Shown here one piece after another: positions 1 through 10,052 of a stretch of 10,052 bases of DNA; within the stretch, counting starts at the first letter, position 1; each line of letters opens with the position of its first letter. Source of the stretch: an uncultured SAR324 cluster bacterium (lineage in GTDB: Bacteria; SAR324; NAC60-12); NCBI GenBank assembly GCA_902513935.1, contig CABXOR010000051.1, forward strand, positions 1 to 10,052, read 5' to 3'. A model generated the notes under the pieces. The model saw only the letters and a list, made by a program, of their open reading frames with translations, was not told where the DNA came from and searched no databases. Both the position numbers and the translations under genes were made by a program.

Positions 1-94
1 AGACAGTTTAGGTCTTGATATAGATGCAGATTCAACAGTTACGTCTCTCTCGGTTGGCCACATAACTCCAGTTTCAATTGCGTCGAATAAGACA
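1..94 (+). repeat. Family A repeat, C-terminal end of a unit cut by the window edge
   Basis: This encodes the last 31 residues of a family A unit: the acidic DIDADS motif (17..34), the segment around SVGHITPVSIAS, and the NKT that precedes the next unit's LSG. Its DNA is almost identical to the end of the third complete unit (1312..1405), which is closer than its match to the unit ends lying between them. The unit itself begins outside the window. Confidence 0.9.
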
Positions 95-3000
95 CTTTCA
101 GGTGCAATCACAGTTTCCGCAGGATCATTAAAGCTTAATGAAACAGGTACGCTTGCCTCCAGTGTTTCGATGAGTCGTGCTACTTTTCTGGATGCAGATG
201 AGTCCATGACAATATCAGGATCACTGACGCAGTCAGGCAGCTTTAGTACAGATCAAGGCTGGACGATAGATGTAGCAGTAGGTAAGACACTTACCTATAC
301 CGGAGCAGCTATAGGTCTAGAGGGACACAAACTCATTTTGACCAGTAGCTCTAGTAATGGTGGGGCTACTTTTAATAACACAAATCCACTGTTACTTAAC
401 AATGCAAACAGTTATCTCAGATTAGATGCTGAAGTGACCGTTGGGTCCGTAAGCGTCAATGTTGCCGGCAATTCAGGCAAAGGCCTGAAAATTAAAGAAT
501 CCTCTACAATCAGTGCTTTAACAGTTGCAGCGGATACGGAACTTTCTATTGATTCCGGCAAGAGTTTATCAGGATCAATTACAGTAACGGCAGGATCATT
601 AAAACTAAATAAGACGGGAACCCTTGCCTCTACTATTGCAATGAGCGGGGGAACCCTTGATACGGATGCATCCATGACAGTATCAGGAGCACTGAGTCAC
701 ACTGCAGACATAACAATTGATGTTGCTTCCAGTAAGACGCTCACCTATTCCGGAACTGCAATCAGTGTTGGAGCAAATACTTTAACTTTAAGCGGTGGAG
801 GAAGTCTTGTCAGCGGAGGGCTGACCCTCAACAATGCAGACAGTAAGCTTCTGCTGAACTCAATCACACTAGACAATGCAACTACTTCTGCAAACAGTCT
901 AGGTTTAGATGTGAATGCAGATTCAACGGTTACGTCTCTCACGATTGCCCACATTACCCCGCTATCAATTGCATCAGACAAGAGTCTATCCGGTGCAATT
1001 TCAGTTTCGGCAGGCTCATTAAAGCTTAATGAGACAGGAACGCTTGCCTCAACAGTATCTATGAGCGGGGGTACTCTGGATGCAGATGAGACTTCGACAG
1101 TATCTGGAGAACTGAGTCATAGTTCAGACATAACAATAGATGTTGCCTCTGCCAAGACCCTTACCTATTCAGGGACAGCGATAGGTGTTGGAGCAAACAC
1201 CATCACATTGTCTGGCGGAGGAAGCCTTGTTAGCGGAGGACTTACTCTTGACAATGCAAGCAGCAAACTTCTCCTAAACTCAATCACGGTAGACAATGTA
1301 ACTACTTCTGCAGACAGTTTAGGTCTTGATGTAGATGCAGATTCAACAGTTACGTCTCTCTCGGTTGGCCACATAACTCCAGTTTCAATTGCGTCGAATA
1401 AGACACTTTCAGGTGCAATCACAGTTTCGGCAGGATCATTAAAGCTTAATGAGACAGGAACTCTTGCCTCAACTATTGTAATGAGTGGTGGTACTATGGA
1501 TGCAGATGAGACTTCGACAGTTTCTGGTGCACTGACTCAGTCAGGTGATATAACGATAGATGTTGCCACGGGTAAGACCCTTACCTATTATTCAGGAACT
1601 AATGTCGGTATTGGAGCAAATACTCTCACAGTTATTGGAGGAGGAACACTTTCCAACCAAAATGCAATTGTACTGGATAACACAAATAGTAAACTAATTC
1701 TTAACTCAGTTACATTGAAAGTCGTAACTACCTCAGAAGCCAGTGAAGGTATTGATGTTGATAACGACTCTACGATTACTAGCTTTTCAGTTGCCAATAT
1801 AACCCCAGTTGCAATAGCATCAGGCAAGACACTCTCGGGAGGAATTACAGTATCAGCCGGATCAATAAAGCTTAATGAAACAGGCACGCTTGCCTCAACC
1901 ATTGCAATGAGTGGTGGAACATTGGATGCAGATGATTCACTGGTAGTATCAGGTGCATTGACTCAGTCAGGTGATATAACGATAGATGTTGCTGACAACA
2001 AGACTCTCACTTATTCAGGAGCAGCTGTAGAAATTGGAGAATATACCCTGAACGTTATCGGAGGTGGAATACTGAACAATAACAATGCTCTTGTATTGGC
2101 TTCAGGAGGTAGTAAACTTCTCTTGGATTCAACTACATTAAACAAAGCAAGTACTTCATCAGGTAGTTTAGGTCTTGATGTGAATGCAAATTCAACAGTT
2201 ACTTCTCTTTCAGTTGGTCATACAACTCCGGTATCAATTGCAGCGAATAAGACACTTTCAGGTGCAATTTCAGTTTCGGCAGGCTCATTAAAGCTTAATG
2301 AGACAGGCACGCTTGCCTCTACCATTGCAATGAGCGGCGGCACTTTAGATGCAGATGAGTCTTCCACAGTATCAGGAGCACTAAGTCACACTGCAGATAT
2401 AACAATAGATGTTGCTGACAACAAGACTCTTACTTATTCAGGAGCAGCGATCAGTGTTGGAGCAAATACAATCACTCTAAGTGGTGGAGGAAGTCTTGTT
2501 AGCGGAGGACTGACTCTTAACAATGCCAGCAGCAAGCTTCTGCTGAACTCAATCACACTAGACAACGCAACTACTTCTGCAAACAGTTTAGGTCTTGATG
2601 TTGATGCAGATTCAACAGTTACGTCTCTCACGATTGCCCACATTACCCCGGTTTCCATTGCATCAGGCAAGACCCTCTCAGGAGCAATAACAGTAACAGC
2701 AGGATCAATAAAGCTCGATGAGGAGGGAGGAATACTTGCCTCGTCTGTATCAATGAGCGGGGGAACCCTGGATGTTGATTATGGGCTGACAGTTTCTGGT
2801 GCACTGACCCAGGCAGGCAACATAACCATAGACGTTCGAGACGGTAGGACGCTTACCTATTCCGGAGCAGCGATCAGCGTTGGAGCAAATACCCTGACCC
2901 TGACTGGAGGAGGAAGCCTTGTCAGTGGAGGACTTACTCTTAACGATCCAAGCAGCGTGCTCCTGCTGAACTCAATTACTGTAGACAACGTAAGTACCTC

Positions 3001-6000
3001 GGCAGACAGCAGTTCAGGAGGACTTGATGTAGATGATGACTCAACTGTCAGCAGTCTCTCAGTTGCCCATATAACCCCGGTTTCCATTGCATCGGGCAAG
3101 ACACTCTCAGGAGCAATCACAGTTTCGGCAGGATCAATAAAGCTTAATGAGACAGGAACCCTTGCCTCAACTATTGCAATGAGTGGTGGTACTCTGGATG
3201 CAGATGAGACTTCGACAGTATCAGGTGCACTCACTCAGTCGGGTGATATAACCATAGATGTTCTTGCTAATAAGACACTTACTTATTCAGGAGCACCACT
3301 CAGTCTGGGGGCAAACACTCTGACCATGAGCGGAGGCGGAACACTGAACAACACAAATGCCCTGGTATTGAATAATGCTGGCAGCCTCCTTTCTTTTGCA
3401 GGCATTGTAACAATTGGAGGTGTTCAGGCGACTGATAACGCTACTTCCGGTAAAGGGATTCAAGTTGTGGAGTCTGCGACCTTGGGAAGCTTTGACCTGA
3501 CTGCAACCAGCTATCTTGATATTGCAGCAAATAAAACGATCAATGGTCCAATAACACTAAACAATAATGCAGATCTGCAAATTTCAGGAAGCGGAGAATA
3601 TTTAGGAGACATGAAACTGGCCGGAGGTAAATTCCGTGTTGACAGCAACCGGGACCTGACTGGTACCGTAAGTGTTACTGCAAGTTCTGAGATAATTGTT
3701 CCCCAAAGTTATTCCCTGGTCCTTAACCAGACCGGTACCCTGGCCCTGGGAGGAAGCACCCTCTCTTCGAGTGGGGCAGGAAAGTTGAAGTTTGAAAAAG
3801 CAATTAATGTTTCAGATGGAGAACTGGAAGTCAGCAATGGAGCCCTGGATTTTGTTTCCGGAGGTACGGTTTCAGAACTGACCTTGGAGAGTGCAACCTT
3901 GGTTTTGAGTGATGATTTAACAGTTGGCGACAATTTAACAACCAGCGGGACAGATCCAACCCTGCAGCTGAACGGTACCCTGGATTTAACCGGCACTGGT
4001 GTCCAAATGCAGTTGGGAACAGGTCTGGTACTTGATAATGTATCCACGGGTGCAAACACAGGGCTGCTTCTAACTGCAGATGCTACACTTACCCGTGGTT
4101 CACCGTTCACTCTTGGCAGCATCAATCTTCAAAATAAAGCACTGACGCTTGGTTCAGGGACAAGTGACATGACGGTTACTAGCGCAGTAACTTTTGATAC
4201 CTCCTCTTCCCAGATACTGACTGGAGATGCAGATTTAACGCTTCAATCTGCTTCTGGATTTGATCTGGTAAATGGAAAACTGAGTTCTACTGGCGGCACT
4301 TTGTCATTACCGTATGGTATGGCTCTCGGGGGCGGAGCCATATTTGATTTTTCAGGCAGCACAGTAGAATTTACAGGAACACTGAATGTCGGAGATGGAA
4401 CAATAAGCTCAAACAGCAGCTCAACTCTTGAGCTCCAGGCTGCATCCAGCTTTACCAGCAATGCTGTATTTACCATTCCAATGCTTGACTTGAACTCTCA
4501 GGGACTGACCTTGAACACATCTTCAACTCATCTGACGTTGAGTAATCCGTTTACTGTTGGAGCATCAGAATCAGTAGATACTCAAGCAGGAAGCCTGACT
4601 CTTAGTGGCTCGGCCACTCTTGAAGATAACGGCACAATCGAGTCCAGCGCAGGATCACTGACATTCAATGGGAGTGTGGCGCTGGACAATGCAAGCCTGC
4701 TCTTGACCGGCGGTTCGGTTGCATTGAACTCAGGAGCAACCATCTCCGGCGGTGAGTTACAACTGTTTGACTCTTCACTGACGCTTGGCGGAAACGTTGG
4801 AATGATAAACGACAGCACCCTGGGTTTGAGAAATACTACCATTAATCCCGGTTCATACACAATCGGATTGACTGGAGGTACTCTTGGGCTTGGCGGAACA
4901 TACAGTGACTTTGGTGCAGTACAGACCGACAATGCTACATCCTTGGCACTGAATGCCAATGCCAGTATTACCCGTTCTGATCCACTTGAAATTGGTGGTC
5001 TGGATTTAAACAACTTTACGCTCACGCTTGGCTCAGCAACAACAGACCTGACAATACACTCAACACTTGCGGTTGACAGTTCGGGTTCGCAGCTCATCAC
5101 AAATGCAGCAGATTTGCTCCTGCCATATCCCCTCCAGCTTACAGCTGGATACATCACTTCCACAGCTGGAACATTCACTCTTACTCAGGGTGGAACTATA
5201 AACAATGCAACTTTGGATGTGAGCGGAACAACATTAAAATTGAGTGATAATCTTTCTGCAGGAAGTGGAACACTGACCTCAAATAACACTTCTGTCCTGC
5301 ATTTGCTGGATGATGTTACCCTGACGTTCAATGGAGAAAAAACCTTTAAGGCCCTTGAGCACAATGGCAATACATTGACGCTAGGCAGCGCTGCTTCAGA
5401 CCTTAAGCTTCTCGATTCGCTTACTCTCAATGCAGTAACCTTACATACCCAGGGTGCGGATTTAAATCTGCAGGGAGCACTTACCCTGCAAAACAACTCC
5501 CTCATTGATTCCACCGGCGGAACATTGACACTGGGCGGCACTGTTGATAACAGCTCTGAGCTAGACGTACCTGGAACTACATTGCAATTGCTAAGTGATT
5601 TTGCGATTGCCGGAACATTAAGCACAGGCACAGGAACTACCATTTCCCGCAACAACAATGAACTTGACCTTTCAGGAGGGCTGCTCAAGTTAGGCGGGGA
5701 TTTGAACCTGGCAGGAACTGTAACGGACAATGATACCGATCTGATTCTGCAGGCAGATGCAACTTTAGGAAACTCAGCCTCTACTGAAATCGGTTCACTG
5801 GACCTCAACGGCTCAGCGCTGACCATTTCGATGCCACTGATAGTTAATGATCCACTTACTCTTGATGATGCAGGGGAACAGCTTTTGACCGGATCATTAG
5901 ATCTATCACTGAAAGACGATCTGGTTATTAGTACAGGGAAACTCTCATCAACCAGTGGAATCATTTCTTTCGGTTCAACTGCGAGTTTAGGGTCTGCCGG

Positions 6001-9000
6001 AACTATTGACATCCAGGGGGGCGAACTTAAGTTGAGTGATAACATCAGCATTACAAGTGGAACATTAACATTTGCTGATAATTCTAAGTTGAGTCTGCTG
6101 GACGAAGTAACAGTTTCAACTAATACACCAATGAGTGTTGGAACACTTGAATTGAATGATAATAATTTTAATATCTCCGCCACTCAAGGTGCAGATCTGA
6201 CGATCAGAGAAGCGTTCAGTTTAGACAATGGTTCAACCCTCCAAATGAATGGTGCGGATTTGACGATGAGTGAGTCTGCAACTATTTCTGGGGTTCTCGA
6301 ACCTTCCGGCGGAACCCTGTTATTTAGTAATGGAGGTAATGTTTCAGGAACTGTAAACAGCAAAAACTCAATCCTCTCTTTGCAGACTGCAAATCTGGTC
6401 TTCACAGGTTTACTTCAAACCAACGGAAGCACTACTTTAAGTGGTGCAAATTGGCTCAATCTTTCGAATGGGACATTGGAGGTCGAAGGCAGCTTGACGC
6501 TGGATGATGTCATAACGAGCAATGGTACTGTACTAAAATTATCTGACCACACAACGATTAGCAGAAATTCCACATTCACAGTTGGCTCAGTGGACTTATC
6601 GGGAAAGACGTTAACCCTCGGGTCCACATATACTGACCTGACTATCGAGAATAGCTCACCAACTGAGGGTGGATCCGCTGGGACTTTCCAAATGCAAGGT
6701 GCAGATTTGACCTGGACCGGGGTCACAGCATTTAGTGCAGCAAAAGTCTACTCAGCAGGAGGGAAACTCACCCTTGCTTCCGGAAGCTCGCTTTCTTCAA
6801 CAGGACTTATTGACCTAAGTAACGGATCTACCCTGGTTTTGAATGGAGCGTTCGGCCAGTCCGGAGGTGAGTTGACTGCAGCTAATGCTACGGTAGAAAC
6901 TGCTGGAGACTTCAGCAAAACTGGAGGGACACTAACAAGTAATAACGGAACCTTTAAACTGAATGGCAACGTTACTGCCTCCAGCAATACACCACTATCT
7001 TTTAAAGCGCTTACCCTGAATAATAATGTCCTCTCCTTTGGTACCCAAACAGATAATCTGACACTAACTGAAGAACTGACACTGAATGATCCGGAGGGAC
7101 GAATAGAGCAGGGCTCAACTGCATTGCAACTGAATGGCGGAGTAAGCATTGATTCAGGAGGAGTGCTTCGATTAACGGATGTTTTAAACACAGGCTCCTC
7201 CAAAGTCAAACTAAATGGGGGCCTGCTCGCAATTGACAATGACACTACGCTAGATTCATCCATCCTGCACCTTGCAGCGTCCACAATAGAAATTGCTCAA
7301 ACGAAGACGCTGACCTATCAAGGAGCTTCAATTGAGATTGGTGCATCAGCATTAAGCATTAATGGAGGAGGAACTTTTACCAACACTAATCCGCTTGAAT
7401 TAGACAATGCGGCAAGTCAAATTAATTTGTCTGGAATTTCTGCAAACTACATCAGAACTGATTCTAACAGTCTTGGTATTACTGTTGATAACTCATCAAC
7501 CGTGAATGATTTTTCGGTAGGACATGTCACCCCAGTTTCTATTTCTCCAAATCAAATTTTAAATGGGTCTTTTAAAATTTATCGCGGAACTATTTATAGT
7601 AATCTTCAACTTAATAACACTGGGACACTGGCAGCCAATGTTACAATTTCAGGGAACGGTGGAACAGTTGAGGCGCAAGAAACTATGACTTTTACCGGAT
7701 CGCTGCAACAAGTTGATCAGCATGATGGATTTGAGTTAATAATTGCTTCCGGAGAAACGATGACATATTCAGGAAGTGAATTCGGAATTGGAGAACATAC
7801 TTTTAAGCTTTCTGGAGGCGGTACATTTAATAATACTAAGAATATTACACTTGATAATTCAGGTAGCAAACTGGAGATAAGTGACAGTACGAAAATATCT
7901 CACCTGTTGGTCAGTGCCAGCAATACAAACGGCGGCCTGACAATTTCTTCAAGTGTAAGTTCCAGTACAGGGAATTTAGTGGAGAATCTATCCCTAAGCG
8001 ATAGTTTTTACGTTAGCTCAGATGACAATTTTAGCATGGGCAGTATCACAGCTGGTGCAACACTTACTTTTTCGAGTGATCAGAATGTGAACATCGGAGC
8101 ACTTACTCTGACAGGCAGTGCAGATTTAAAATTGGGTACTGAAAATATAACTTTGAGTGTATCTGGTCCTGTAACGGTCGGAGATTCTCAAAAACTACAA
8201 AACGGTGGTGGATCTTTTAATTTCTTAGGTGGCTTAAGTCTTGAAGCGGGCAGCCAATTAATTGGTCAAGGTAAGAAGGTTTCCGGGAATATTGTGTTGA
8301 ACGGGGGTAAAATAGCAACCGAACAAAATACAGTCTTAACTGATAATCTGACACAGAGTGCAGACTCAACACTACAAATAGCTACTTCAAAAACTCTGAC
8401 TTACTCAGGAGCAGTTGTTGATATTGGCACTTCAAAATTGAATATCAATGGAGGAGGAAGCTTTATTAATTCAAATAGTTCAGCACTAAGTTTGAATAAC
8501 GCAAACAGTCACTTAGTCTTAGACAATGTGAGTGTAGGTTTTGTCTCAGGTTCTGCAGTAAGTAATAGTTCAAAAGGCCTGGAAGTGAGCGGAGACTCTA
8601 CGCTTACTAATTTGAGCATGACAGATAAACTGAGACTTTCAGTTGATTCAGGAAAGACTTTGACTTTAGCAGAGCCTTTGACTGTATCGACGCAGGGAAT
8701 GGATTTGGCAGGTGCCGGAACTTTGGACCTGACTGATAATTTAACCTTGAATGGAAACGTTACCCTTGTTTCAGGAAGTTTGACTATTGATGCTTATGGG
8801 CTCCTGCTGAATTTGGGAGGCGACCTCTATTTAGCGGACGGTGAATTGAAGACAGATAATACTACCAATTTCCATTTAATTGACAATTCAACACTGACCA
8901 CGAATGCAGAACAGACGGTTGCAAATGTTACGGTTACAGAAAACGTAGACCCTATGCTGACTTTGGGCAATACAACCATACTAAAGGTCGTTGAAGCGGT

Positions 9001-10052
9001 CGCTTTTGGAATCTCTTGTCCTCAATCTTTGCCTATTCTGCCTACGGGGCAATTGAGACTGCCTGGTGGATTACAAATTGACACCGGTGGAACGTTGTGT
9101 ATAGACGCATGGCTGGAAGGAGACATTGTTTTGAACGGTGGAACTTTACAGGTAGATAATGATACGACTATTAGTAGTGACTCAACAATTTCACTAAGTT
9201 CCTCTTCAAATCTAAAGATAGTTGAGGGTTTCAGCTTAACCTATGAGGGCGACGCTCTCAGCTTAGATAATAAAACATTGTCTTTGACCGGCGAAGGATC
9301 TTTGGTGCTTAATAGTGATGGTAGCAATCCAGTTACGCTTAATCATGCAGACGGAGAACTTGAATTTTCTAGCGACAATACCACTGTCAGTCACGTAAAA
9401 ATAAGTTCAGGTGATATATCGAATGCTCCTACTTTGAAAATTAGTTCCAATGGTGTAATTCAAAATCTGGCTCATGAAGAGTTTTCGGAAATTAATTTTG
9501 CGAGTGGCAAAACATTGAGTATTACACAAGCCTTTGAAGTACCTGACGGCAAACAGATGACGATTACAGGTGCTGCAGGGACACTGACACTGGGTGATAA
9601 CATGTCACTTAGTGGTACTCTTAATTTAGGAGTTGAAGATGTAATTTTATCTAGCGGATCACTCACTTTAAATGGAGGGCTCCTTGAGGTTAGTAAAGAT
9701 GCCAGTATTTCGTCAGCAGTAATTCAAGAGGTAAGTTCTGAATTTAGTGTGGCAGCAGGAAAAACTCTTTCTTACACTGGTAGTTCATTCGATATAAGTG
9801 CTTATACACTGACCCTCAGCGGAGGCGGCTATTTTCAGAGTGGAGGCTTGGATCTTAACAATGCAGACAGTAAGCTTCTGCTGAACTCGATCACGGTAGA
9901 CAATGTAAGTACTACAGTAGACAACCTGGGAGTTGATGTTGATAACGACTCTACGATTACTAGCCTTTCAGTAGCCAATATAACCCCGGTTTCCATTGCA
10001 TCCGGCAAGACACTCTCAGGAGCAATAACATTAACAGCCGGATCAATAAATC
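1..10052 (+). CDS. Internal segment of a giant repetitive beta-solenoid surface protein (partial at both ends)
   Basis: Reading from base 2, I translated all 3350 codons and found no stop. The frame at the right edge is the same as at the left, so the gene continues beyond both ends and has no start, ribosome site, signal peptide or anchor domain here. The product is Ser/Thr/Gly/Leu/Asn/Asp rich, poor in Lys and Arg, nearly free of Cys (only residues 3006 and 3033) and has four Trp. Strand-turn motifs recur throughout, giving a predicted parallel beta-helix. Residues 1-1179 are tandem 140-residue repeats, about 1180-2403 are a second degenerate repeat family, 2404-3222 are diverged copies of the first, and 3223-3350 return to the near-canonical repeat. 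Differences between units are whole codons and often third-position changes, supporting selection on the protein. No enzyme, RTX nonapeptide, VCBS or cadherin-like motif is visible. By analogy with giant adhesins it is probably exported and surface-located; that role is inferred. I do not recognise a specific named gene. Confidence 0.93.
95..565 (+). repeat. Family A repeat unit 1 (157 aa, expanded and diverged)
   Basis: The unit opens with canonical LSGAITVSAGSLKLNETG and then departs from consensus. The gap from LSG to the KTLTYTG motif (284..304) is 63 residues instead of 56, because of extra sequence around FSTDQGW. The gap from there to the next unit is 94 instead of 84. The second half uses the alternative FNNTNPLLLNN strand instead of SLVSGGLTLNN, and the usual acidic DxDxDS site is replaced by a lysine-containing stretch (KIKESS). 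It holds one of only four Trp in the window (codon 260..262). It resembles the second half of unit 8 and the diverged copies after 7211 more than its immediate neighbours, so it may be an older variant. Confidence 0.85.
566..985 (+). repeat. Family A repeat unit 2 (140 aa)
   Basis: This is a canonical-length unit. Visible landmarks in order are LSG at the start, SAGSLKLNKTGTLAS, MSGGTLD at 641, KTLTYSG at 734..754, TLSGGGSLVSGGLTLNN, SKLLLNSIT, the acidic DVNADS motif (908..925) and HITPLSIAS. MSGG to KTLTYSG is 31 residues and KTLTYSG to the next LSG is 84 residues. A stretch of this unit (830..861) is repeated base for base at 9857..9888, and the segment from about 846 to 905 closely resembles the same part of unit 6. 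Confidence 0.92.
986..1405 (+). repeat. Family A repeat unit 3 (140 aa)
   Basis: This is exactly the same length as unit 2, with KTLTYSG at 1154..1174 and an acidic DVDADS motif at 1328..1345. The last part (from 1312) matches the first bases of the window almost perfectly, and that match continues into unit 4 until about 1452. The first part is closer to units 2 and 4 than to unit 1. The unit is therefore a mosaic at DNA level although the protein pattern is uniform. Confidence 0.92.
1406..1831 (+). repeat. Family A repeat unit 4 (142 aa)
   Basis: The first half is canonical. The hallmark KTLTYSG motif carries a one-codon insertion, giving a Tyr-Tyr pair (tat tat at 1586..1591). The strand after GGGTL uses the variant SNQNAIVLDN instead of SGGLTLNN, and the acidic motif is DVDNDS (1754..1771). 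The bases around that motif (1752..1783) recur identically at 9933..9964, more than 8 kb downstream. Length changes against the 140-residue norm are in whole codons. Confidence 0.9.
1832..2254 (+). repeat. Family A repeat unit 5 (141 aa)
   Basis: KTLTYSG is at 2000..2020, preceded by DVADN, a variant shared at DNA level only with unit 6. The middle strand uses NNNNALVLA, as in the unit 4 type. The site corresponding to the acidic motif is degraded to DVNANS (2177..2194), with two of the three Asp replaced by Asn. The first half keeps the fixed 56-residue spacing from LSG to KTLTYSG. Confidence 0.9.
2255..2674 (+). repeat. Family A repeat unit 6 (140 aa)
   Basis: This is a canonical unit with KTLTYSG at 2423..2443 and DVDADS at 2597..2614. 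Its front half shares the DVADNKTLTYSGA segment with unit 5. Its back half (SLVSGGLTLNN, SKLLLNSITLDNATTSANSLG) is closest to unit 2, with only scattered silent changes. This change of nearest relative inside a single unit indicates past exchange between units. Confidence 0.92.
2675..3103 (+). repeat. Family A repeat unit 7 (143 aa)
   Basis: This unit has the most altered charged residues of the canonical set: DEEGG replaces NETG, DVDYG replaces DADET, and the motif is RTLTYSG (2846..2866) preceded by VRDG. The acidic site reads DVDDDS (3026..3043) and follows a Ser-Gly-rich spacer with extra residues (ADSSSGG). Base composition is locally high: a hand count of 2761..2820 gives 33 G or C in 60. 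Confidence 0.9.
3104..3538 (+). repeat. Family A repeat unit 8 (145 aa, second half diverged), end of the array
   Basis: The first half is fully canonical, through MSGGTLDADE and KTLTYSG at 3272..3292. After GANTLTMSGGGTL the unit switches to the NNTNALVLNN variant and loses both the acidic site and the HITPVSIAS segment. In their place are VVESATLGSF and LDIAANKTING, recognisable only by position. The following LSG equivalent is ING at 3539, after which family A similarity is no longer visible. This half-unit is the boundary between the homogenised array and the old, diverged central region. Confidence 0.85.
3539..7210 (+). repeat. Central region of degenerate family B beta-strand repeats (about 1220 aa)
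   Basis: No family A landmark survives here, but a second pattern recurs. Its fullest form is an Ile/Leu-Gly-(Ser/Gly)-(Leu/Ile)-(Asp/Asn)-Leu strand, then LTLGS, then TDLTI, followed by a GADLTL-like strand, a GGTLTLGG-like strand and a TLKLSDN-like strand. The LTLGS anchor or its equivalent starts at 4142, 4505, 5021, 5375, 5819, 6167, 6611 and 7031. Spacings are 121, 172, 118, 148, 116, 148 and 140 residues. Identity between copies is low and confined to the hydrophobic strand positions and turn Gly/Asn/Asp, so these copies are much older than family A units. The segment 3539..4100 holds related strands without a clear anchor. The region contains two of the window's four Trp (codons 6452..6454 and 6713..6715) and no Cys. 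The most likely structure is continuation of the same solenoid. Confidence 0.7.
7211..7558 (+). repeat. Diverged family A copy D1 (C-terminal three-fifths of a unit)
   Basis: The copy starts at an LNGG strand and reaches KTLTYQG (7304..7324) after 31 residues, the same spacing as in units 1-8. GGGTF and NTNPLELDN follow. The segment VGHVTPVSIS (7517..7546) is a clear relative of VGHITPVSIAS in the array. The next LSG equivalent is LNG at 7559, 85 residues after KTLTYQG (the canonical value is 84). The upstream 25 or so residues of a full unit are replaced by family B-like sequence. Confidence 0.75.
7559..8016 (+). repeat. Diverged family A copy D2
   Basis: LNG aligns with the LSG unit start. 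LQLNNTGTLAANVTISG aligns with the canonical LKLNETGTLASTIAMSG segment, and ETMTYSG (7754..7774) with KTLTYSG at a longer distance (65 instead of 56 residues). GGGTFNNTKNITLDNSGSKLEIS aligns with the following strands. After about 7900 the similarity fades into Ser-rich sequence. The right boundary is approximate. The start is AT-rich: a hand count of 7561..7620 gives 16 G or C in 60. Confidence 0.65.
8017..8296 (+). other. Spacer of unassigned beta-strand sequence between diverged copies D2 and D3
   Basis: About 93 residues of in-frame sequence with family B-like features: MGSITAGATLTF, GALTLTGSADLKLG and GGLSLEAGSQL. I could not align it convincingly to a complete unit of either family. It is clearly part of the same solenoid-like reading frame. 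Confidence 0.6.
8297..8659 (+). repeat. Diverged family A copy D3
   Basis: LNGGK at 8297 precedes an exact KTLTYSG (8390..8410) by 31 residues. Then come INGGGSF, SLNNANSHLVLDN (like LNNANSYLRLD of unit 1) and SKGLEVSGDSTLTNLSM, which parallels GKGLKIKESSTISALTV of unit 1. GKTLTL aligns with the canonical GKTLSG at 90 residues from KTLTYSG. It is closer to unit 1 and unit 8 than to units 2-7. Confidence 0.7.
8660..9130 (+). other. Unassigned beta-strand segment holding the only cysteine pair
   Basis: The first part has family B-like strands (LDLTDNLTLNGNV, LNLGGDLYLADGEL). From about 8980 the pattern is interrupted by a stretch unlike the rest of the window, with several prolines (SCPQSLPILPTG), two cysteines at codons 9017..9019 and 9098..9100, and a Trp at 9110..9112. 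This could be a loop or small subdomain protruding from the solenoid, or a closed coil held by a disulfide. Confidence 0.6.
9131..9514 (+). repeat. Diverged family A copy D4
   Basis: LNGGTLQVDNDTT parallels the canonical MSGGTLDADET, and FSLTYEG (9230..9250) parallels KTLTYSG after 33 residues. Later landmarks are weak: KTLSLTGEGSL for TLTLSGGGSL, LNHADGELEFS for LNNADSKLLLN, and FASGKTLSI for IASGKTLSG (LSI at 9515, 95 residues after FSLTYEG). It is the least conserved family A relative in the window, even though it lies just before a near-canonical unit. Confidence 0.6.
9515..9667 (+). other. Short unassigned segment between diverged copy D4 and the near-canonical unit
   Basis: This encodes about 51 residues, with LGDNMSLSGTLNLG and related strand motifs. 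It occupies the place of the front portion of a family A unit but could not be aligned to it residue by residue. Confidence 0.55.
9668..10012 (+). repeat. Near-canonical family A copy after a gap of about 6 kb
   Basis: LNGG (9668) to KTLSYTG (9761..9781) is 31 residues, and KTLSYTG to the next LSG (10013) is 84, both exactly canonical. From TLTLSGGG onward the protein is nearly consensus, including SKLLLNSITVDNVSTT, the acidic DVDNDS site (9935..9952) and NITPVSIASGKT. The DNA of this half has long exact or near-exact matches to units 2, 3, 4 and 7/8, whereas the front of the unit is diverged like D1-D4. Confidence 0.85.
10013..10052 (+). repeat. Start of the next family A unit, cut by the window edge
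   Basis: LSGAITLTAGSIN matches the canonical unit start LSGAITVTAGSIK. The DNA is closest to the junction and start of units 7 and 8. It implies that a second homogenised array begins here and continues to the right. Confidence 0.8.

Follow-up and report, generated by a model that had tools for sequence, protein, structure and literature searches.

A giant surface-protein gene of SAR324 bacteria with predicted beta-helical repeats, and its possible link to an ion-driven surface machine built from MotA, MotB and a FliG-like membrane protein

This study focused on a 10,052-nucleotide stretch of DNA (the window; contig CABXOR010000051.1 of assembly GCA_902513935.1) from an uncultured SAR324 cluster bacterium, which forms an internal part of a gene for a giant surface protein, and on the genes for MotA, MotB and a FliG-like membrane protein that lie near such giant genes in related genomes. 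A single stop-free frame on the forward strand occupies bases 2..10051 (3350 codons) and is open at both ends; the recount agrees with an earlier note on this DNA, which had reported no stop over these bases and a frame running out of both edges. From base composition (44% GC) the probability of such a run is ~1e-87, and the remaining five frames of the window contain from 62 to 301 stops. Three further frames on the antisense strand, 178 to 332 codons long, do not amount to evidence of genes. The frame is coding and under purifying selection, since dN/dS against the nearest relative, G001, is 0.30 (dS 0.19, dN 0.058, over 2113 aligned codons, a count from which gapped codons, and one codon where G001 has a stop, are left out). 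Window residues 158-3338 can be aligned, with 54% identity, to positions 2940-6129 of an ortholog that has 9484 codons. Ser, Leu, Thr and Gly are abundant among the 3350 residues, which include 2 Cys, 4 Trp, 109 Lys plus Arg and 301 Asp plus Glu, a composition to be expected of an acidic, extracellular repeat protein.

An array of repeats of about 140 residues was identified by pattern match at 89..3532 on the forward strand, with eight unit starts at residues 30, 187, 327, 467, 609, 750, 890 and 1033, and Tandem Repeats Finder reports 6.4 copies of 420 bases at 569-3292. Three units (980..2248, forward strand) were modelled as a beta-helix with a mean pLDDT of 93.7 and a pTM of 0.87, and the repeats are predicted with high confidence to form a beta-helix resembling autotransporter passengers. 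The last bases of the window (10007..10051, forward strand) re-enter the same repeat family, a further unit starting at residue 3336. In the window protein no family of Pfam or NCBIfam reached its cut-off, so that the earlier statement that it holds no recognisable globular domain stands as far as these families go, but the repeats have a confidently predicted fold. The window is best read as part of the giant protein's shaft.

The genome nearest to the window, G001, is the SAR324 metagenome bin FRAM18_bin343, and the two are collinear over 6.4 kb (3273..9678, forward strand) at 91% DNA identity, with 535 mismatches distributed 145:99:291 over codon positions 1:2:3. Window residues ~1201-3200 are also collinear with a second relative, G002, at 61-72% protein identity, while residues 1-1000 match it at only 40-48% and in no single order. 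Bases 1-3272, which hold the 420-base repeat array, have no collinear counterpart in G001: the G001 arrays most like that of the window (70-81%, in longer matches) lie downstream of the stretch that matches window 8364-10050, and directly upstream of the collinear stretch G001 matches the window array at just 65-69%. Judging by these alignments, the array may have been moved or copied in the lineage of the window, or the assembler may have joined through a repeat; the junction with the rest of the window keeps the frame, even if it is an assembly join.

The size of the whole gene was estimated from relatives. With window residues 1667-2666 as query, matches were found in 19 of 98 genomes, comprising 19 of the 52 genomes of the same class and none of the 46 others. 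The ortholog frame on JACNJW010000040.1 (SAR324 NIOZ-UU44; the handles G002 and G006 denote this same place) extends over 17892-46343 on the minus strand, with 9484 codons between stops and its first Met at residue 6. A protein of 6106 residues, P0002, from a different contig of 85,989 bases, matches ortholog residues 3379-9484 without gaps at 99.85%, although the underlying reads may be the same. In another genus, G025 carries a giant frame of 8385 codons between stops, and further giant frames in other genomes have 4871 and 3748 codons. The locus in G001 (C4, 644,900 to ~686,240) is about 41 kb long, and its frame is broken by many small indels, 15 of them in 6.4 kb of the giant gene compared with 5 breaks in 23.2 kb of neighbouring genes; across the locus (L008-L010, G001:C4 644900-686240) the density of breaks is around ten times that of the neighbours. 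In G003, too, the giant frame is interrupted close to its start, leaving frames of 264 and 1945 codons; decay and assembly error are possible causes in both genomes. The view that the window is a fragment of a gene several times larger is thus borne out by the orthologs and by the extent of the G001 locus. The earlier note had also named a short gene expanded by the assembler as a finding that would overturn it, and this is not the explanation, because several relatives hold frames of thousands of codons. More generally, it is very improbable that the length is mostly an artefact of misjoined repeats hiding a much shorter true gene: the different placement of the array of bases 1-3272 in G001 and the broken G001 frame speak for it, but the four long frames in other genomes, the gapless match of P0002 and the purifying selection over 2113 codons all speak against it. 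Giant genes have reportedly been the subject of earlier work in Omnitrophota.

Since both ends of the gene lie beyond the window, the termini were studied in relatives. A hydrophobic N-terminal segment is found in all five full-length relatives checked on a simple hydrophobicity scale, and the first 700 residues of the G002 protein contain a lectin-like Laminin_G_3 domain (E 1.5e-24). On the same scale, G002, G023:C11 and G023:C63 have two more segments near the C terminus and G025 has one above the threshold, G020:C4, which lacks the C-terminal insertion described below, has none near its C terminus, and G023:C11 and G020:C4 each have one other internal hit. The C terminus consists of a duplicated Trp-rich domain. 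Of 20 proteins aligned, 16 have the second copy interrupted by an insertion that contains hydrophobic stretches and a lipobox-like Cys, the residue before this Cys being Ala in 15 of the 16 and Ser in one; ten of the 16 are orthologs, found in genus g1 and in G025. In the complete ortholog the insertion comprises two membrane helices and has the Cys at its end. The remaining four of the 20 proteins have both Trp-rich domains without the insertion. In a search of 383 genomes the uninterrupted kind was detected as two adjacent pieces (2-181 and ~277-342) in eight places and the interrupted kind as one piece in 19 places, together with two cut ones; the module as a whole was matched in 23 genomes, of which 21 are SAR324 and two gave partial matches only.

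The search of the termini for secretion domains or anchors that the earlier note had advised was partly productive: the relatives have a signal-like N terminus and a C-terminal module with membrane segments and a lipobox-like Cys, but no type I, Va or Vb secretion domain was recognised with Pfam and NCBIfam. At an E-value limit of 0.1, the first 700 residues of the G002 protein contain no N-terminal haemagglutination-activity domain (type Vb) and the last 702 residues no C-terminal autotransporter barrel (Pfam/NCBIfam), unlike autotransporters whose passengers are otherwise similar (Ag43, EspP, pertactin); nor was a type IX sorting domain found in these 702 residues (NCBIfam, E 0.1), where a divergent domain might escape detection. 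The split C-terminal module is also found on a large frame of G028:C548 (L169, 3-7931) whose start resembles a subtilisin-type protease by eye, and because of this second setting the module looks, from its sequence, like a general tether.

The genes around the giant gene were best seen in G002. Upstream, and on the strand of the giant gene, lie genes for a protein of 568 residues whose start looks lipoprotein-like by eye, a protein with a FecR domain (E 1.6e-8), a barrel-like protein of 421 residues (Porin_4 match below cut-off, E 1.2e-4), a MotB of 529 residues with MotB_plug and OmpA domains, MotA, and a 553-residue FliG-like membrane protein. Downstream are genes for proteins of 732 and 156 residues without Pfam matches. 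Outer-membrane barrels often end in Phe, and Phe is the C-terminal residue of both the 732- and the 421-residue proteins. A relative of the 732-residue protein is found 3' of the giant gene in G001, G002, G025, G023:C11 and G023:C63; none was found at G028:C82, and in G003 the 3' side of the giant gene is on a different contig. The order giant gene, FecR, barrel-like protein, MotB, MotA and FliG-like gene is common to two genera (G002 and G025), with three additional large frames with lipoprotein-like starts in G025, and in G021 the FliG-like, MotA, MotB and 421-type genes stand together up to the contig end. MotA and MotB, with a membrane protein adjoining MotA, also lie near giant genes at G023:C11, G023:C63 and G028:C82, and G028:C530 has a MotAB locus with such an adjoining membrane protein. 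Altogether, the motor triad recurs near giant genes in four SAR324 genera (g1, g8, g6 and g5), in varied order and with extra genes, and twice in G023. The FAD motif with the ion-binding Asp is kept in all eight MotB sequences checked (seven of the giant type or like it, and one from a second locus described below), and the MotA motif [AS]PAFG[MV]VGT in all five sequences checked.

In the giant-linked MotB (L025 10577-12163, minus strand) about 340 residues separate the membrane helix from the OmpA domain, and this section has matches below cut-off to Calx-beta (E 0.003) and LapA (E 0.03). At G023:C11 (L139 15635-17695, continuing into L140), contractile-tail genes directly follow the giant-linked MotB, including a phage sheath C-terminal domain (E 7.8e-15); an extracellular injection system or a prophage beside the motor is possible.

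The membrane protein next to MotA carries its FliG-like domain together with a periplasmic part and a membrane helix. When a profile of 11 orthologs was compared with the PDB, the six best matches were all FliG, three of them at E <=0.0015 and the best at 3.1e-5; individually, at E 0.1, all 11 members match MgtE_N, ten FliG_M and four FliG_N. A profile of the four distant membrane proteins (G023:C11, G023:C63, G028:C82 and G028:C530) matches the middle and C-terminal domains of FliG at E 2.3e-12. Profile-profile comparison connects these four with the g1 type (96.8%, E 2.5e-10) and with the type from the second locus (98.6%, E 4.8e-16), and the g1 type with the second-locus type (95.8%, E 7.5e-9). 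Taken alone, the G023:C11 protein matches FliG_C (E 0.005) and FliG_M (E 0.007), and the G028 proteins give weaker matches. Of the 383 genomes, 14 gave full-length relatives of the giant-linked FliG-like protein, and all 14 are from SAR324 family f1; partial matches came from four more (E 4e-10 to 6e-9).

Genes for flagellar motility and cell adhesion are reported for all SAR324 genomes, an abundant, uncultured oceanic group for which a particle-attached life has been suggested (PMC9031357). On sequence grounds the giant-linked triad is separate from the other MotB genes of the cell. The four MotB_plug proteins of G006 are a tandem pair on C41, which is probably the flagellar one, a single protein on C61 and the giant-linked MotB on C3; C49 carries a further FliG, 336 residues long. 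Full-length relatives of the giant-linked MotB are present in 11 of the 52 class genomes (E under 1e-180), and FliG_C matches on frames of 590-670 codons in 23. A second locus that does not look flagellar, in G048:C23 (L160 4019-11757), specifies MotA and MotB, a barrel-like protein and TPR proteins; one more of its products weakly matches FliF_C, and another is a membrane protein of 615 residues in which FliG_M and FliG_C are recognised. In G012:C14 (L156 5889-11365) there are FliF_C-like and FliG parts, with no MotA or MotB within the stretch read.

How closely the motor genes are tied to the giant genes was judged from 14 large-protein loci, a count that leaves out contigs ending near or inside the gene (G004, G007, G009, G012, G016, G018, G028:C548, G028:C594 and others). 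MotA and MotB lie within 25 kb at seven of the loci (G001, G002, G003, G025, G023:C11, G023:C63 and G028:C82), and at the other seven they do not (G020:C4, G020:C52, G022:C219, G023:C95, G023:C42, G028:C203 and G028:C6, the last two being short contigs). At G028:C82 the match to the giant C terminus is weak (E 9.7e-4), and this locus is absent from the results of the 383-genome search. Among the 52 SAR324 genomes a strong giant C terminus was found in 14 and a strong FliG-like protein in 14, with both in ten; the genomes are related and incomplete, so that these counts are not independent trials. The seven loci without motor genes would fit a static surface fibre or adhesin, the motor genes serving some other task, such as envelope maintenance with Pal, TolQ and TolR, and the neighbourhood being kept by descent or chance. 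Homologs of Pal, TolQ and TolR do adjoin the motor genes in G002, G021 and G027, but at G023:C11, G023:C63 and G028:C82 none was found in the frames read nearby, save weak TolQ matches within the MotA frames, and the recurrence of the motor genes near giant genes in four genera, twice in one genome, also speaks against a static fibre, which we consider rather improbable.

By the tests made, which were weak for Agl-Glt and for type IX secretion, the SAR324 locus belongs to none of the known systems SiiE/SiiAB, SprB/GldLM and Agl-Glt, although it shares features with each. In Salmonella SPI4 a giant surface adhesin, SiiE, shares a locus with the MotA/MotB-like proton channel SiiA-SiiB, and surface retention of SiiE is reported to depend on the proton motive force (PMF) in the excerpts of PMC6272769. 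The stator pair of SAR324 could by analogy energise or gate the export and retention of the fibre, as proposed for SiiA/SiiB, the FliG-like protein then playing a structural or regulatory role beside it. The pairing of a giant adhesin and a MotAB-like channel in a single locus is the same, and the MotB_plug and OmpA domains of the giant-linked MotB are in keeping with this view. However, none of the eight proteins scanned around the G002 giant gene was recognised as a type I secretion protein, the repeats are predicted to be beta-helical and not Ig-like (BIg) as in SiiE, and the SAR324 giant protein starts with a signal-like segment and is accompanied by a FliG-like membrane protein, a partner not named for the SiiE system in those excerpts. 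An export and retention role of this kind is regarded as unlikely, if less so than a static fibre. In the SprB-GldLM system of gliding Bacteroidota, which use type IX secretion, an ion-driven 5:2 motor moves a surface adhesin, but GldLM resembles MotAB without homology (PMC13104615, where the term 'FliG' is absent), whereas the SAR324 motor comprises homologs of MotA and MotB with a FliG-like protein, and the SAR324 giant protein has no recognised type IX sorting domain in its last 702 residues. The Agl-Glt and Agl-Nfs systems of Myxococcus similarly have a MotAB-like motor linked across the envelope to outer-membrane partners with surface cargo (PMC3858216 and PMC9389320); in SAR324 the likely cargo is the giant protein and not a polysaccharide, and a FliG-like protein is added. 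No Glt family reached its cut-off in a search by family models, not by direct comparison with Glt proteins; the only match, of TPR type and located in the second locus, scored far under the threshold of the GltE model. With the flagellar stator and switch the SAR324 locus shares homologous MotA, MotB and FliG-like domains and the Asp motif of the MotB helix, but FliG is soluble there and a membrane protein here, and the locus does not sit with the flagellar genes for FliF, FliG and the tandem MotB pair. A parallel may also be drawn with SwmB of Synechococcus, a giant surface protein tied to flagella-free movement that is not known to have associated motor genes. No account of a giant protein with a MotAB/FliG-like system in SAR324 was found among the best-ranked titles and abstract starts, a coverage that excludes most subscription journals, and the terms 'SAR324' and 'adhesin' are absent from PMC12505986.

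Our preferred reading is that the giant protein is a surface adhesin or fibre worked on by a repurposed MotAB/FliG-like machine that uses ion flow, and we put its chances at about even. The giant protein, of some 9,500 residues or more, would leave the cell through Sec; its C-terminal part would be lipidated and perhaps cleaved at the lipobox-like Cys, after which the two chains could stay joined via the split domain. The putative outer-membrane partners of 732 and 421 residues would display the protein, and MotAB with the FliG-like protein would turn ion flow into force on the fibre, either moving it along the cell in a gliding-like surface movement or tensioning it during particle attachment. 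The fuller proposal, that SAR324 has a further ion-driven surface machine in which a giant beta-helix fibre is driven by MotA, MotB and a membrane-re-anchored FliG and is held by a C-terminal domain that an internal lipoprotein-type signal divides in two, is put forward tentatively and seems somewhat doubtful.

Several observations weigh against a motor-driven fibre. The termini and the motor genes are carried over from relatives and lie outside the window itself, the giant frames of G001 and G003 are broken, and half of the 14 loci have no MotA and MotB nearby. Four of the 52 genomes (51-85% complete) have the strong giant C terminus without a strong FliG-like protein, and four have the strong FliG-like protein without a strong giant C terminus, one of these with a 27-residue piece at E 1.8e-10. 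Some proteins with no motor nearby likewise carry the C-terminal membrane module. Its structural model, which gives the same order of strands and helices for both Trp-rich copies and places two long helices within the second, is weak, with a mean pLDDT of 61.9, and no solved structure matched it. FliG_C matches just two of the 11 g1-type FliG-like members at E 0.1, and the G023:C63 membrane protein taken alone has no FliG match in Pfam. Finally, the FliF C-terminal domain is present in 48 of the 52 class genomes, indicating true flagella, and a further motility machine is therefore not needed.

If the preferred reading is right, a giant fibre with its own motor would supply a concrete means of living on sinking particles. 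The split domain at the C terminus, with its internal lipobox-like signal, would represent a new mode of tethering a surface protein. An inner-membrane FliG-like protein paired with MotAB outside the flagellum would, moreover, open the origin of the flagellar rotor to direct tests, since its parts and those of the stator could then be examined with no flagellum present.

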